From Xanthostigma xanthostigma (Eukaryota > Arthropoda > Insecta > Raphidioptera > Raphidiidae), in assembly GCA_963575645.1 (NCBI GenBank), contig OY754469.1:40692753-40756752 (forward strand): 64,000 bases of DNA, given 5' to 3'. Position 1 is the stretch's first letter; each line of letters opens with the position of its first letter. Shown piece after piece: positions 13,823-55,018 of the stretch. The notes beneath the pieces are model-generated. The model had not been told where the DNA came from. It ran no database searches and saw only the letters and a list, made by a program, of their open reading frames with translations. Position numbers and translations under genes: made by a program.

Positions 13823-14135
13823 TATATAGTATCCCTATGCGTAACAAAAACTAAGAAACGTGCGAGTTCATTATTTTAAATTAATTACCCTGAAGCCTCA
13901 GCTTGGAGCGTAAATCCAGTCAAAAGAACTACTGACTAACACACTGACCTCTGACATAGCTAGTGCTGACTAGACGCAAATTCTGCTGGCTGGATGCAAT
14001 CCGTTTAACACTCGTTGTCAAGAAAATGTACTCTTAAATTAAAATAGGACTACCAACGTGAGATGATATCGGAAATATCGATATGAAAATTAAACTGGTC
14101 GTTATTATCGATGAAATTGTTTACAAGTGGGTACA
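13823..14135. other. Spacer
   Basis: No gene or repeat recognised. Confidence 0.45.
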
Positions 14136-14440
14136 GTACTCGCCACGAATCTAAAAGGCTCGGAAGTTAGATGCGAATGTGGGCTTGCGCTTGTACAGCT
14201 TATTGGAAAACTACAAACTCGCAACTCAGCAAAACTAAAATAACAATAACAACTTGACAATAGCGTACTCGACTGTACTTTAAAGCAGGAAAGCGACAAG
14301 TGACAAAGGCAGCGAGCGATCACGGCCAATCACCGACGAGCGCACGTTCCGTGTAGGTAGCTGGGAGGTGGTGGGAGTCTCGTGCCTGTGCGACGCTGTT
14401 TGTGACTAACTTCCGAACCTTTTAGATCCGTGGCGCGTAC
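14136..14440 (+). mobile_element. MITE, 'gtacgcgccacg' family, copy 1
   Basis: Ends are about 35-bp inverted repeats (gtactcgccacg at the left; tccgtggcgcgtac at the right). The interior contains gagcgatcacggccaatcac. Full copy 2 lies at 48741-49056 and a truncated inverse copy at 36861-37128. Two flanking bases vary here, but the 48741 copy is flanked by TA, suggesting a Tc1/mariner-type MITE. Confidence 0.75.
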
Positions 14441-14755
14441 TGTACTTGGTATATCACATACGTATGTATTGGCAACACAAATTGATAGTAACCGTCAGTC
14501 GGGTGCCTGTAATTTCTGTCTAGCTAGCCAATTTAGTGTACTAGTAAAATGTGTCTTCATTACGAAACGTGCCGATCTAGTGTGCGGTATCGTACAGGTT
14601 GCAGGTTTTTGCTGTGCAGGTCGTTCAGGTTTATGCTCAATTATGAAGTTTGCCACATTTTTTACTAAATAATCACAGTCTTAAAATTACAAAACAAAAA
14701 CTTTTGTAATAATTAAAAAAAATAACAAAGTTTGACAATTCTCCGCGCTATGCCG

Positions 14756-14860
14756 TCACGCGCCACACGCTTCATATTTGTAGCAGGTAACTGAATCTTC
14801 CTGTTTAACTGGTTCAATTGCACGGACACCGTTTGTAGCTGATTTGTGACCGAAACTCAT
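14756..14860 (-). CDS. Short ORF downstream of the heat-shock modules
   Basis: A 34-residue frame with an ATG start begins MSFGHKSATNGVRAIEP and includes a CYKYEAC segment. It is the first long ATG frame about 0.4 kb downstream of the duplicated promoter module on the same strand, after a G+C-richer leader (14870-15130). The function is unknown. It may be the start of a decayed retroelement gag or a chance frame. Confidence 0.25.
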   Translation of the reverse strand: MSFGHKSATNGVRAIEPVKQEDSVTCYKYEACGA

Positions 14861-15165
14861 TATACTTCAAAACCGTGCTTTATCTGATGATCCCTCGAGC
14901 CCTGCGGGTCGACCATAGCTCTTCACCACGTTAGACCGGTGCGTAATTGACTCACTCCGAGATCTCGTAACATCCTCTTGTCTCCACTGCCTTTGCGCCT
15001 ACAGTACTATTATACCCGTACCGTGCAGCTAACTCTAACTCAGCGCTTCTCTTACTACAGCTTAAAGCTGCATCTGTTACCGTGAATAGACATAAATACA
15101 AACTTCCTGCTATTGTGGTGGCTGTCTGTGTTTTATTCGTCTACAGTGCGTTCAACATAACTTGT
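14861..15165 (-). other. Leader-like sequence downstream of heat-shock modules
   Basis: This stretch is clearly richer in G+C than its neighbourhood. An AATAAA signal occurs on the minus strand at 15132-15137, about 146 bases after the nearer predicted start site. That would fit either a short polyadenylated transcript or the R-U5 end of an LTR. No primer-binding site starting TGG was found after it, so the LTR reading is unproven. Confidence 0.35.
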
Positions 15166-15282
15166 ATTTTCCATAAAATAATAACTACTACGCACACAGA
15201 ATATTTATATCACGGTTCTCTATTTATTTATTTAACGCCTAGTTATGTCGCTCGTGTACTTTTCACTGTCACTGACACTGAC

Positions 15283-15361
15283 TGAATCCTTCCACGCTAG
15301 CGCTGTTTATATAAGTACTTAGGCCGCGTTCTGGAATGTTCTTCGGCATTCTAGAAGCTTC
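15283..15361 (-). promoter_or_regulatory. Heat-shock-type promoter, unit 1
   Basis: Read on the minus strand: TTC/GAA triplets form two perfect three-box heat-shock elements at 15349-15361 (TTCTAGAAGCTTC on plus) and 15329-15341 (TTCTGGAATGTTC on plus). The TATA box TATATAAA follows at 15306-15313, then an initiator TCAGT with its A at 15283, 30 bases from the start of the TATA box. This is the spacing and order of an arthropod RNA polymerase II heat-shock promoter. Its transcript would run leftward into 14756-15165. Confidence 0.65.
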
Positions 15362-15478
15362 AGAATTCTTCTATAATAACACTAAACTACTATGTACACA
15401 GAATATTTATATCACGGTTCTCTATTTATTTATTTAACGTCTATTTATGTCGCTCGTGTACTGTTCACTGTCACTGAC

Positions 15479-15557
15479 TGACTCCTTCCACGCTAGCGCT
15501 GTTTATATAAGTACTTCGGCCGCGTTCTGGAATATTCTTCGGCATTCTAGAAGCTTC
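15479..15557 (-). promoter_or_regulatory. Heat-shock-type promoter, unit 2
   Basis: Same arrangement as unit 1: heat-shock elements at 15545-15557 and 15525-15537, TATA box at 15502-15509, initiator TCAGTCAGT with its A at 15479, again 30 bases from the TATA start. Its transcript would read through unit 1. No coding sequence lies between the two units. Confidence 0.65.
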
Positions 15558-15560
15558 GGC

Positions 15561-16229
15561 ATTCATTTATGACGTTCCGGTAACAATGTTCACACACTGT
15601 CTATGCAATTCCGACAACAATTGTTGTCTACGCGGCTCTAACAACGATGCAAATATTCCATTATCGTGGTTTGTCAGTTGCAACTTGCAAATTCCTCTAA
15701 ATTTACTTAATATAATCGAACATTTGTGAACACAGTGTAAATGTTCAGTCATATCAAAATTAAATTTATTAGGTTCAAACTATATTAAGGAGATTGTATG
15801 CTTTAGTCCCGATAGCCATTTACCTATTATGACATCAATTTTACATTTATAGCGGGTTTCACAAACATTGGATAAACACCGACCCAGGAATTAATCTTCG
15901 TTTATTTTCATTTAATAACACGCATTTGAACAAAGACAGATGAGTATTAAAACGAATTATATATATTGTTTGCAAAATTTATCACCATTGTTTTAATTGA
16001 ATTCTGCTCAATACCTATTTAAAAAATATGAATTTTTAATTTTGTAATGTTAAAGTGCATCTCTGTAACAAAGCTAGCCGCCAATATTATATTTTACGCG
16101 GTAATAATTTTAGTTTTTTACACCAATACAGTAGATTTCGTTTATAATGTTTCCGCAAACAACTAACCATCGTTTGTAACAAACATCACAGTTTAGTTTT
16201 TTAGAGGTAATAAAAGAATAACTATAGGT
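15561..16229. other. Sequence upstream of the heat-shock modules
   Basis: A 61-codon minus-strand frame (15567-15752) ends just upstream of unit 2 but matches nothing I know. The rest is AT-rich with no recognised element. Confidence 0.4.
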
Positions 16230-35870: not shown

Positions 35871-36860
35871 AGGACGACTGCAGAAAGTGCACAGTCCCTT
35901 GAGTGTCGTTGTATTTTTTTTCATTTTACAAACTAGTGCAAAAAGATGTTTTACGGGCAAAAAAAGCTGCAATTTTATAAGGGCTCGTGCAAAACGGGTA
36001 TTAACATTAAACGTACGAAATTTTGTCAGCTACAACTTTCATGCATGGAAATTTTTCGCACGACCAACTCTTTTCGAGATATATAAGAAAAACCAAAAAA
36101 AAAAACCTTTAAAGTGACCTGAGGATCAAGGACTTTTAATATGTATTTACCCACGACGGAACGGAGCAGGTATATGCGTTTAGCCTAAGAGATTGTGTGT
36201 TTGTAAGCGTGTTAGTTTGTTTGTGCACTCTAATGTCGCCATTTATCTGGAAAACGGTTTGATCAATTCAGATGCGGTTTTCTGTAAATGGTTTGTAATT
36301 CATCTGCGATGGTTCTTAGACAGATATTACGATGGTAACGCTCCAGGGGATGCTGCACTGCACAAAAAACCATAACAAACGTGCTACGCACAAACAGATC
36401 TAACAAGCGTTCGTTAGTAGTGGTTTTTACAGCAATACACATAGACATTTATTACTAATCAGTCCAGACAAAATCCTGAAGTCAGGTTTTCTGCTTGTTG
36501 ACTTTCCGGCTAGACGACTCTTTAGAGCATTCATTAACTAAACTAATTGATGCCATAAATTGTAGGTTGGTGAGTTTTCAAATTTCCATAGCTCATTACA
36601 CTGATATAATTTATTTTTTTCATTTATCAAACAGCTCGCGTGTTTAGTGCACATGGTTTTATTATTGTTAGACAGAATACAGAAAGTATTTAATCCTTAG
36701 CATGCTGTCAGTGCTATACATACATATATTATGTATTATGGTTGTCAGTATAACTACAGTATTAATATGCATGCGATACGTGGTTCGTCCGTTCTATAAT
36801 GGCGTTCAGATCACTGGCGTTTTCAGAGTACAAATTAATTTCTTAATAATTTAATGTATA
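35871..36860. other. Spacer
   Basis: No gene or repeat recognised beyond short chance frames. Confidence 0.4.
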
Positions 36861-37128
36861 ATACGCGCCACGGATCAAAAAGGTTTGGAAGTTAGTAACA
36901 AACAGCGTCGCAAAGGCACATTTTAGCCGTTGTGACTCCCACCACCTCCCAGCTACCTGCACGGAACGTGCGCTCGTCGGTGATTGGCCGTGATCGCTCG
37001 TTGCCTTTGTCACTTGTCGCTTTTCTGCTTTAAAGTATAGTCGAGTACGCTATTGTCAAGTTGTTATTGTTATGTTAGGTTTGTTGAGTTGCGAGTTTGT
37101 AGTTTTTCAACAGACTGTACAAGCGTGA
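36861..37128 (-). mobile_element. MITE, 'gtacgcgccacg' family, truncated inverse copy
   Basis: Starts atacgcgccacggatc and contains gtgattggccgtgatcgctc, the inverse of the other two copies. The far terminus is lost after gactgtacaagcg. Confidence 0.7.
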
Positions 37129-47678: not shown

Positions 47679-47687
47679 TACTTGAGT

Positions 47688-48299
47688 ACGGAAGCCGGGT
47701 TGGCTCATTGGTGACTAGTGGAGTAGTGGCACCGCACACGGCCACTTCCAACATGTTAACGCGTGCACGCGTTAACATGTGTCCGTGTGCGGGATAAATG
47801 CAGATTTCTATCTTATCCTGGAACGGTAATCGAGCTATCTCTGTCTTTTAACTGTCAAATTCTGTGAGCAGCGTTACTTTTTGCATTGAGGTTAGGCGTA
47901 GCTGAAGTTTTGTTTATAGTGAAATAAAGTAATAAAGAATTTCAAAGTAAACATTAGAAAAGAGTTTATTGTTCATCACAGGTAATTTTACGGTAACATT
48001 TTCATTTTTAATTTTAACGAAACTCATTTCTAATGTTTACTTTGAAATTCTTTATTACTTTATTTCACTATAAACAAAACTTCAGCTACGCCTAACCTCA
48101 ATGCAAAAAGTAACGCTGCTCACAGAATTTGACAGTTAAAAGACAGAGATAGCTCGATTACCGTTCCAGGATAAGATAGAAATCTGCATTTATCCCGCAC
48201 ACGGACACATGTTAACGCGTGCACGCGTTAACATGTTGGAAGTGACCGTGTGCGGTGCCACTACTCCACTAGTCACCAATGAGCCAACCCGGCTTCCGT
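47688..48299. mobile_element. Near-perfect 612-bp palindrome with 8-bp target duplication
   Basis: Starts acggaagccgggttggctca; the right end is the inverse. Arms of about 280 bp differ at only a handful of sites. The 8-bp duplication ACTTGAGT is perfect (47680-47687 and 48300-48307), as made by hAT- or P-type transposases. Each arm also contains a 30-bp perfect palindrome with centre gcgtgcacgc. The near-identity suggests recent origin or active arm conversion. Confidence 0.8.
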
Positions 48300-48740
48300 A
48301 CTTGAGTGTTTGTAAGCAATACTCAAGCACACTTGACACTTATTGTACAACTTATTATTAATGCACAAGTATGCTTGACGAGCATCGTTTTCCACATGCA
48401 GTCATTTTGTGCAAATTTTATTACATCTCGATGCTTCGGTGGAGCAATATGATGGAAGCTGTTTGTATAGCAATTATTTTTTCTCTTTATTTATACTTAC
48501 CGTATTGTGATAATGGCCTTAGTTGCTGATTCGCTTATTTTGTTTTCAAAATAAAAAAAAAAATTCTCTTGCATTTGAAATAAAGAAATCAGGGAAAACG
48601 AAAAAAAATGACGTTAAAGTGTTTTTAAGAACTTTTTACAACCGATATTCATTTTGTCTACATAAAGCAAACCATTCCACGCCAAAATTATTGGGTTTTT
48701 GATGCATTGTTAATGAGTGCAAGAATACATTGAACGTATA

Positions 48741-49056
48741 GTACGCGCCACGAATCTAAAAGGCTCGGAAGTTAGATGCGAATGCAGGCTTGCGCTTGTA
48801 CAGTCTGCGTTGAAAAACTACAAACTCGCAACTCAACAAAACTAAATAACAATAACAACTTAAGACAATAGCGTACTCGACTGTACTTTAAAGCAGGAAA
48901 GCGACAAGTGACAAAGGCAACGAGCGATCACGGCCAATCACCGACGAGCGCACGTTCCGTGCAGGTAGCTGGGAGGTGGTATCAACGGCTCTAAAATGTG
49001 CCTTTGCGACGCTGTTTGTGACTAACTTCCGAACCTTTTAGATCCGTGGCGCGTAC
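48741..49056 (-). mobile_element. MITE, 'gtacgcgccacg' family, full copy
   Basis: Starts gtacgcgccacgaatctaaa, ends with tagatccgtggcgcgtac, and is flanked by TA. It best defines the family (compare 14136 and 36861). Confidence 0.75.
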
Positions 49057-49224
49057 TATGTAAACATTACCACACACTGTAAGCAAGCTTTGCGCAATCA
49101 TTATGATTGACGGAAAAATATCAAACGTGGTTTGTCAAGTATCTTTTATCAGATCCATGGACTATCGAAATGTTTGCGCAGTTGCAGTTTGTAAATCAGG
49201 CTTGGCTGTGTATGGGCCGCTTAA

Positions 49225-52130: not shown

Positions 52131-53514
52131 TTGTACGAAATATATAGGGAAAGTTTTATGATATTGCAAAAATTGGATTTTCAGTTTTTGGTGACTTTAC
52201 GTGTTTTCAAGTTCCCTGGACCCAAAAAAGTGGAAAAAATCTGATTGCAGTTTGTCTGGGATCTAGATGCGATCGCAGAGAGACATGCTACAGAGTTACG
52301 AGCACATGGGCATTTATATATAGTTTTTTAGTAAAACTTATAAATGCCATGGCTTCTAAACATTCAAAGATAAAGAAGTGGGAGTGGTAGAAATATTTTT
52401 AACGCAGTGATTTACAAAACTGGGCGCTGCAGCGATCTAGGGGGGCGGTGATGGCCACATGCGCATTTGGGGGAAATGCATTCTGAGTTTAATAAATAGT
52501 TTCATAATTTCAAACTTCAATGTTTCTAATCTACTTACATCTTTCTTTACAATATTTTACCAAAAAGGTAGAAACATTAACTACATATGATATATATCTT
52601 TCTGTTTAATTTCTATTAAAATTAAAAAAAAATTTCCAGGGAGTAATATTTTTTCTGGAAAGGGGGTAGTAGGTCAAAGAAGTTAGTGATTCACTGGTTC
52701 AACGCAATTTTTTATATAAGAATAACCTCAGTTGTAAGTCATTTGTAAACAATATCTAATTGCTTTTTAGGTTTTTTAAATGAAAAAAGTGAGAAGGGTT
52801 TCTCCTTTTTAAAAAACTGAGAGATTTTAGTTTTGTTCAAAGAATATTTTTTTCAATAAGAAAAATGTCATAATTCAAAGAGAAACTAAACCGGCATAGT
52901 GTGTTCTATTTCGAGAAAAAAACACGAATTATTATAAAAGTTTTGAAAATTTATAGACCTCGCATTGTAAAATAACAAACAGACAAATAATGTAGTCGTG
53001 TAACATAAAAATTGTCCTACTTTCTGTTAAAAAATATTGTTACGTGTTCATAGAAAATATTTTGTTGAAAACGAAAATTTTATGTGACTATAAGTATCTG
53101 CATGCAAAACATTACATTTTGTGCCCTGAAAACATCCAGACAGTGCGCTTTTCACTATGGTCGGAGTAGGGAGGTAGTTATAAACAGGAATGTATGTGAC
53201 ATATGCCCGAGGAAGAATACATTGCATAGAGCTGGAGTACATCTTGTTGTGTACTGTACATAACACTGCTCCAGCCAGCTCTAGCGGTTTCGGTCTCGAA
53301 GTGCTCAATTCTGTGCCACTGTGGCGCTAATAAATCAACGTTGTGCGGCATTTATAGCTCCCACACTATGTGACCACCGCGCAGGTATCATGAGACCGCT
53401 ATAGAGTGAGCGCTGCATGTCCTTAACTTGGTGGCACACTGGCTAACCGAGACTTCCAGAGGGGCTCTGACTCTTCCCAAACTGACTCTCAGAAATATAG
53501 ATGTATATTGTATA
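52131..53514. other. Unassigned
   Basis: A G-rich patch lies at 52438-52475. The minus-strand frame at 53048-53308 has no known domain. Nothing else recognised. Confidence 0.4.
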
Positions 53515-54429
53515 GAGGGTGTCCCATTAAGAATGGGACATAGAACAACCGCAGATTCTCCAATTCAAAATAAAACGATTAAGCGAAATATGTTTAGATA
53601 AAATGTTACTCGTTTCCGAAATACGGGATGTTGAAGTTGAAAACTGAAAAATTAATTATTAATGTCCATAATTTTTTTAATACACCGTATAATTTTACTC
53701 AAATCGGCACACTTGTTAAATATCATAAAATGCACCTAACAATACAAAAATAGTTCAGTACGCCCTACCAGTGGCGTACGGCAGGAGTAAGTAATGCTTG
53801 TACCCCTTCTAAATGTTACGCCGCTGTCTAAATTTTAATTTTGACTATAATTTTAAGTTTTTTGATATTTTCTAAGTCAATAATGTACACTTGTTAGTTT
53901 GTTGTAAAGCCATTGGTTTTCGAGATATTCGCAGTTTTTTTAAGACAAAATTGTAAAAATGAATACTTATTATTAATAATATCTAATACAAATAAAAAGT
54001 ACATGTCTATCTATCTTTAACTGCGAATATCTCGAAAACCAATGACTTTACAACAAACTAACAAGTGTACATTATTGACTTAGAAAATATCAAAAAAATA
54101 AAAATTATAGTCAAAATTAAAATTTAGACAGCGGCGTAACATTTAGAAGGAGTACAAGCATTACTTACTCCTGCCGTACGCCACTGGTAGAGCGTACAGA
54201 ACTATTTTTTTTATTGTTAGGTGCATTTTATGATATTTATGCCGATTTGAGTAAAATTATACGGTGTATTAAAAAAATTATGGACATTAATAATTTTTCA
54301 GTTTTCAACTTCAACACCCCGTATTTCGGAAACGAGTAACATTTTATCTAAGCATATTTCGCTTAATCGTTTTATTTTGAATTGGAGAATCTGCGGTTGT
54401 TCTATGTCCCATTCTTAATGGGACACCCT
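53515..54429. mobile_element. 915-bp palindromic element
   Basis: Arms of about 430 bp starting agggtgtcccattaag are inverted with few differences. Recognisable blocks are ggcgtacggcaggagtaag, gaaaaccaatg and cgagatattcgcag. The first 30 bases of each arm themselves form a hairpin (gtcccatt/aatgggac). The centre is under 80 bp. No coding capacity. Confidence 0.85.
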
Positions 54430-54434
54430 GTATA

Positions 54435-55018
54435 CAGTATGTAAACACGTAAGGTGCACATAGGGAAATTAACATTGGGAAAAAATGACGGGATCAGAGT
54501 GAGCCTTGAAATCTTGTTTTTCAATTTGACAGATAATATTCTTTTGCAAAATGAATGTGTATACAACTGAAGAAAATATTTAAATGATTAACAACATAAT
54601 CGGACTTTTTTTATAAATGGGACATTAAATTCCGAAAAAGTATACTACCGAAGAAAATATTCAAATTATTACAACATAATCGGACTTTTTTATTAATGGG
54701 ACATTAAATTAACAAAAATACTTAAATATGGTGCGAGATACCAGTCAGACAATTTTTGAATGAAATGTTTCCAAACAGATGGAGTTGTTTTTTTGTTTTA
54801 TTTTTGTACAAAAAAAAAATAAAATAATGATTTATAAGAGCTTTTTATTATTAAAAAAGCCAAGTAAAATAAAAATAAATCAAAATAAAATAGAAATCCT
54901 CAAGATTACCACGATAATTCAATAGAAATAACAATTGATGCAGTCATGGCTAACTCTGATCCAAGTATTTTTTCCCAATGCTAATTTCCCTATGTGCACC
55001 TTACGCGTTTACATACTG
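54435..55018. mobile_element. TA-flanked Tc1/mariner-type MITE, copy 1
   Basis: Starts CAGTATGTAAACACGTAAGG, ends with its near-inverse (gcgtttacatactg), TA on both sides. Separated from the preceding palindrome by only five bases. Copy 2 at 62683-63602 carries an insertion. Confidence 0.8.

Follow-up and report, generated by a model that had tools for sequence, protein, structure and literature searches.

The question raised by this locus is what a complete heat-shock promoter, present twice in tandem, is doing in front of DNA that holds no heat-shock gene. The window, i.e., the whole stretch of 64,000 nucleotides that was analysed, contains two promoter modules arranged as a direct repeat on the minus strand. 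All the components described in the earlier note (two perfect three-box heat-shock elements or HSEs, TATATAAA and TCAGT per unit) were present in both:

15385..15570, minus strand: upstream promoter module, direct repeat
15183..15374, minus strand: downstream promoter module, direct repeat, 93.5% identical to the upstream module over aligned bases
15525-15537 and 15545-15557, minus strand: exact three-box HSEs of the upstream module (sequence scan)
15329-15341 and 15349-15361, minus strand: exact three-box HSEs of the downstream module (sequence scan)
15515..15557, minus strand: in-phase HSE array of the upstream module, seven of nine alternating GAA/TTC pentamers
15329..15371, minus strand: in-phase HSE array of the downstream module, seven of nine pentamers
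15502..15509, minus strand: TATATAAA (TATA box) of the upstream module
15306..15313, minus strand: TATATAAA (TATA box) of the downstream module
15477..15481, minus strand: TCAGT initiator-like word of the upstream module, with the A at 15479 as predicted start
15281..15285, minus strand: TCAGT initiator-like word of the downstream module, with the A at 15283 as predicted start

Counted from the first T of TATATAAA, the A of TCAGT is 30 nt away in both modules, exactly the distance given in the earlier note. Each pair of HSEs is a single in-phase array in which GAA and TTC alternate at 5-bp steps. The exact three-box HSE occurs four times in the 64 kb, always within the two modules (0.93 expected), a number reached in 2 of 100 shuffles of the window. 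For the arrays, the comparison was with 100 first-order Markov sequences as long as the window, in which the best in-phase array had five boxes once, four in 56 cases and three in 43, vs. seven of nine in the window. A heat-shock promoter is expected to have three or more contiguous inverted nGAAn units ahead of its TATA box. The window modules have this arrangement and so, in part, do the sibling LTRs described below. The modules share 174 of 186 aligned bases with 6 gap columns (90.6% identity counting gaps); the core is repeated at 196 bp and the transcribed-side part at 202, owing to a small indel. It had been argued that conserved elements within a diverged spacer pointed to function. This argument fails, since units that are 93.5% identical would share their elements anyway and give no evidence for conservation of elements over spacers, and since one in-phase GAA, beside the TATA box, is kept in the upstream module and has become TAA in the downstream one.

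No heat-shock protein reading frame was found downstream; 15 ORFs of at least 100 aa in the window and one of 34 aa had no Pfam match above cut-off, the nearest hsp70-family match on contig C6 was ca. 35 Mb from the modules, and a search of the window with Rfam gave no family at gathering score. The DNA that would be transcribed is the following:

14450..15182, minus strand: flank that a transcript would read into, outside the element (genome similarity search)

Over its full length this flank matched only its own locus (40 of 214 candidates scored), and the other 39 matches covered a dispersed repeat of ca. 65 bp alone, so a transcript could run into unique DNA. This short repeat is located at 14569-14637 of the window and is 83–90% alike in the 39 genomic places scored. 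Other repeats surround the locus. A MITE-like element with 40-bp inverted ends lies at 14131-14445 and has relatives at 36856-37125 and 48736-49059, as well as in three of the fetched loci (L011, L014 and L023). Two near-perfect palindromes, at 53505-54440 (91%, ca. 940 bp) and 47685-48302 (95%, ca. 620 bp self-complementary), are probably foldback or MITE-type elements.

The search for copies covered 623 Mb in 28 contigs and located the repeat in many places. With the unit as query, and 40 of 594 candidates scored, there were at least 42 matches on many contigs, a number that includes two in the window itself; with a whole LTR copy there were at least 41 (40 of 2357 scored). The copies begin and end abruptly at common points, with TGTAAC on the left side and GTTACA on the right, as seen in the alignment of 18 of the 20 fetched loci (L011 and L027 were left out). 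Both ends were paired in 11 of the 22 loci given to the script. Seven of these paired copies measure 446–489 bp, one 390 and three, which have inserts or extra modules, 615–1006. They are flanked by a 4-bp target duplication that is exact in eight, has one mismatch in two and two mismatches in one; the letters of the exact ones vary (ATAT, ATAC, GTAT, TTAA). Inside, the order is HSE array, TATA box, TCAGT repeats, A-rich leader, T-rich stretch, AATAAA and CA end. The common ends, the target duplications and this internal order together identify the repeat as an LTR and, as far as sequence can tell, the complete copies are solo LTRs. Ty1/copia elements usually make target duplications of 5 bp, and the 4 bp found here point, tentatively, away from that group. 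Helitrons are DNA transposons that are not known to make target duplications, and the 4-bp duplications do not fit an HSE-carrying Helitron.

Aligned to the genome copies, the window locus runs from 15651 to 15373 and then, for the second unit, from 15374 to 15183:

15183..15651, minus strand: probable decayed solo LTR with the promoter module twice, lacking the 5' start of U3 and the 3' part (alignment to genome copies)

The window copy is thus very probably what decay has left of a solo LTR, from a putative Ty3/gypsy-type lineage, with its U3 built as a heat-shock-type promoter. One guess of the earlier note was that an LTR retroelement had escaped recognition here and that its U3 was duplicated. 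This is borne out by the LTR ends and 4-bp duplications and, in sibling families, by a primer site, paired LTRs and pieces coding for gag, protease, reverse transcriptase and integrase. The AATAAA that it placed about 146 bases downstream is there, but lies outside the recognisable LTR. Identical 36-mers had suggested a young subfamily, which was discarded, as the copies are only ca. 68–82% alike over alignments of at least 200 bp. A same-strand pair 7.6 kb apart on contig C1 was considered as a full-length element but interpreted as two separate solo LTRs; in L009, which covers some 4.5 kb following the first of them, the ORFs measure 60–122 aa and no retroelement coding was recognised by eye. 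A purine tract ahead of the LTR gave three matches, of which only that at L049 was tract-like, and no retroelement coding was seen upstream by eye.

The connection with coding retrotransposons comes from the sibling families, whose LTRs align to the window-type LTR at 68–89% over the 3' part. The LTR 3' end followed by 0–4 bases and TGG had 80 matches, vs. two for the reversed controls, with peaks at spacers of 1 nt (37) and 3 nt (37), and with 2 and 4 matches at spacers of 2 and 4 nt. In most of the 3-nt class, the LTR end is succeeded by the target ATAT and then by GG. In the 1-nt class, of which 8 of the 37 places were fetched (first part only), the primer site TGGTGTCAGG stands one base after CA in seven of the eight; L059 does not continue. 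By inspection, TGGTGTCAGG appears able to pair with the 3' end of a Leu-type tRNA. At L056 the primer-site region runs on, past the LTR, into an apparent complement of the 3' half of tRNA-Leu, which by inspection gives the impression that the element has taken up a copy of its primer tRNA; a tRNA gene at this place was considered and ARAGORN found none.

Several of the places lead on into stretches coding for protein. Three of the loci were searched with Pfam and gave matches above cut-off to SAP and Asp_protease_2 (L052), RVT_1 (L053) and rve (L055), with Retrotrans_gag just below cut-off in L052, where a CCHC knuckle was recognised by inspection; these gag, protease, reverse transcriptase and integrase domains come from pieces at separate loci. 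The gag-like protein of L052 starts with the SAP domain (Pfam E 1.5e-11). The LTR of L052 has a partner on contig C1, on the same strand and 6.1 kb away, with a printed identity of 100%, and a second element with paired LTRs 6.1 kb apart was found on C4. Both are young full-length elements. Motif reading and the 4-bp duplication point to Ty3 rather than another superfamily, which we regard as a putative assignment. The suggestion to look through the genome for further units and a paired LTR thus gave many copies, and paired LTRs in sibling families but none for the window subfamily, which was seen only at solo length, with no full-length copy found; three candidates for a primer site beside a window-type LTR end (L080-L082) were all false.

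We have also examined how far the promoter extends through this lineage. A TATA-anchored scan covered the window and 36 loci, 33 of which had originally been found with the promoter core or the whole LTR as query; 39 of 41 LTR modules had 4–7 in-phase boxes. L011 was not included, L012, L015, L016, L049 and L051 yielded no LTR module with the TATA pattern used, and two TATA words that lie outside LTRs, in L010 and L015, were set aside. As a reference, five or more boxes were found in 7 of 3000 random 52-mers from the window, a null that includes the feature itself. The first TCAGT was 24–39 nt from the TATA start in 40 of the 41 modules and absent in one. LTRs were also picked by their ends, regardless of the promoter, which avoids the bias of those queries. 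Among those picked by the 3' end plus ATATGG (20 of the 23 places with CAGTTTTGTTACAATATGG were fetched, 600 bp each, L061 being chosen for ATAT on its right side), 8 of 20 contained an exact three-box HSE, against a mean of 0.09 and a maximum of 2 in 200 Markov trials; in the remaining 12 the U3 may lie beyond the 600 bp fetched. Among those picked by the 5' end, it was present in three of three, L049 included (Markov mean 0.005). L061 is of the window's family and has no near TATA word, and the other seven positives are of sibling families and have the HSE 14–19 bp before the TATA word. The promoter is present in more than one sibling LTR family.

The earlier note had named random loss of HSEs or TATA in the genome copies as counter-evidence. 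Such loss was found in part, some copies retaining only 2–5 boxes and L049 having lost its TATA, as is expected of decaying solo LTRs, while the exact HSE persisted in the end-picked samples at the frequencies just given. Genome-wide, allowing up to three mismatches, the window-type core word had 200 matches and the sibling-type 547, with none for either reversed control; in this total of 747 core words not every box is kept in all, as the three mismatches permit, and tandem modules are counted repeatedly. An HSE-TATA word from the flank of L045 had one match genome-wide. In the list of 36-mer matches (80 of 84 rows with 1–2 mismatches, leaving out four rows of a C6 tandem array and not using exact and 3-mismatch rows), the HSE boxes were only a little less variable than the spacers, with 2.9 vs. 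6.2 mismatches per position (3.6 when one position is left out), and the degenerate in-register triplet, with 2.7, was no more variable than the boxes.

The LTRs fetched beside internal regions (L052-L059) are different, with the exact three-box HSE in none of the eight. L052 and L054, of the paired-LTR family, have a weaker array, TTC GAA ATC GAA, in which three boxes stay in phase and the one that they enclose has changed, then TATATAAG and then TCAGTCAGT. L055 has three scattered boxes, L056 two and a near-box, and L057 and L058 no recognisable HSE array. The last two, whose LTR carries a minisatellite-like run of AACAGTGAATGAATGACAGTGAA-type units, are 99.9% identical, as in a young family. 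With coding-adjacent LTRs that have a weaker array or none, the strong heat-type promoter, best seen in solo LTRs, may reflect past activity.

Promoter doubling is found elsewhere in the lineage. L027, L035 and L038 have two modules each, L042 two that are 162 bp apart and 96.8% alike, and L048 (C6:46733500-46735200) is a solo LTR of ca. 1 kb with five tandem modules at ca. 134 bp and a TTAA target duplication. These are five of the 36 loci, a proportion that gives no rate, as L035 and L048 were picked for their multiplicity. Junctions and periods differ among them, the range being one to five units, and in the window the junction is the following:

15354..15380, minus strand: tandem duplication junction; as a 27-mer with up to three mismatches it has one genome match, the window itself

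A single double-promoter subfamily can be discarded, since the junctions differ between copies and that of the window is unique in the genome. The differing junctions and periods indicate instead that whole promoters have been multiplied more than once, which may have taken place in reverse transcription or after insertion. Such repeated multiplication of a whole core promoter inside an LTR is an unusual route of promoter evolution.

The relatives of the window copy appear to have scattered hundreds of heat-shock-type promoters, and the pattern suggests that these elements placed their expression under the heat-stress response of the host. HSF trimers would bind the in-phase array upon heat shock, or in germ cells with active HSF, RNA polymerase II would start at TCAGT, and intact elements would in this way produce their genomic RNA. 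Copying of the element would thereby have been, or still be, coupled to host heat stress. We propose tentatively, at slightly less than an even chance, a Ty3/gypsy-like insect lineage hard-wired to the heat-shock response, with an HSE-TATA-initiator promoter common to several diverged LTR families and to the 747 core words, evolution by promoter multiplication (up to five per LTR) and heat-coupled retrotransposition. The doubled module of the window would then be a relic which, if still active, would give rise upon heat to RNAs of the minus strand that begin near 15479 and 15283 and run into unique host DNA.

A possible alternative, to which we give a lesser but appreciable chance, is that the HSEs serve a germline or developmental HSF, i.e., that HSF, active without stress, switches the element on in the oocyte or embryo, at a stage from which new insertions are inherited. 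Germline expression generally benefits retroelements. PMC10745035 refers to HSF as being needed in oogenesis and early larval life of Drosophila; the array, however, is of the multi-box type used in heat induction, and the present data do not tell the two uses apart. That the copies are non-autonomous TRIM- or MITE-like elements unrelated to coding retrotransposons is unlikely. The window subfamily is indeed known at solo length alone, and the coding-adjacent LTRs are devoid of exact HSEs, but the sibling LTRs share the 3' part, LTRs with this same 3' part adjoin the primer site and the gag-pol pieces, and the succession of TATA, initiator, AATAAA and CA end has the polarity of an LTR.

It also seems quite improbable that the host took over the window copy as promoter of a stress-induced non-coding RNA, with selection keeping the doubling, in spite of two intact modules placed ahead of DNA that matches only itself over its length. 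Neither Rfam nor Pfam lends support, the other copies have multiplied too, each with its own junction, so that doubling is a habit of the repeat, and nothing marks an adoption by the host, even if the copy could provide a stray heat-induced RNA start. Hardly credible, finally, is a captured or duplicated host hsp promoter whose gene was lost. The order of elements is that of insect hsp promoters, and the hsp70 promoters of the same genome (L029-L033, five readable of six fetched) resemble the LTR in that HSEs or box pairs are followed by TATA and a leader. A remnant of a host gene is contradicted by the dispersal of the copies and by their LTR ends, the five hsp70 promoters have only short words in common with the LTR (best blastn E ca. 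1), and the nearest box pair is ca. 62–68 bp before the TATA in them vs. ca. 23 bp in the LTR. The comparison covered hsp70 promoters, and capture by an ancestral element, for instance from a small-hsp gene, is still conceivable. If the heat-coupled reading is true, this genome offers a natural collection of promoters that respond to heat. Among models of stress-induced genome change, heat-responsive retrotransposons hold a leading place, with the well-studied case in plants, and an animal lineage with hundreds of such promoters would allow testing the relation of heat to transposition and the recruitment of neighbouring genes by solo LTRs.

One of the closest known systems is ONSEN/COPIA78, which, like other heat-responsive COPIA elements of Brassicaceae, has clustered nGAAn boxes in the LTR according to PMC5059998. 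There the heat response of COPIA elements is described as having arisen repeatedly, the strong site of ONSEN as a duplication of a proto-site, and the solo LTRs and fragments of ONSEN in Arabidopsis as without functional sites and not heat-responsive. Both systems are LTR retrotransposons with HSE boxes in the LTR. ONSEN/COPIA78, as portrayed in that source, is a plant Ty1/copia element, whereas here the lineage is animal and Ty3/gypsy-like, has hundreds of core-word matches, and combines HSE, TATA and initiator in one module that is itself multiplied. In Caenorhabditis, Helitrons carry HSEs and spread them through an animal genome (PMC6927752); unlike these, the present elements are LTRs with 4-bp duplications and an attached core promoter. 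For Drosophila, passages of PMC10745035 list predicted HSF sites in the copia and gypsy LTRs, as single matches without a GAA/TTC array, and report that under chronic heat only Tirant rose among the elements measured. Copia, gypsy and Tirant are insect LTR elements too, but no multi-box array with TATA is shown for them in those passages. In the open-access literature, subscription papers being mostly outside its scope, our search found no animal Ty3/gypsy lineage with such a promoter. A heat-type promoter in an LTR is thus known, and what appears to be new is the variant described here, an animal Ty3-like lineage with a complete hsp-like core promoter, multiplied repeatedly and present in hundreds of copies.
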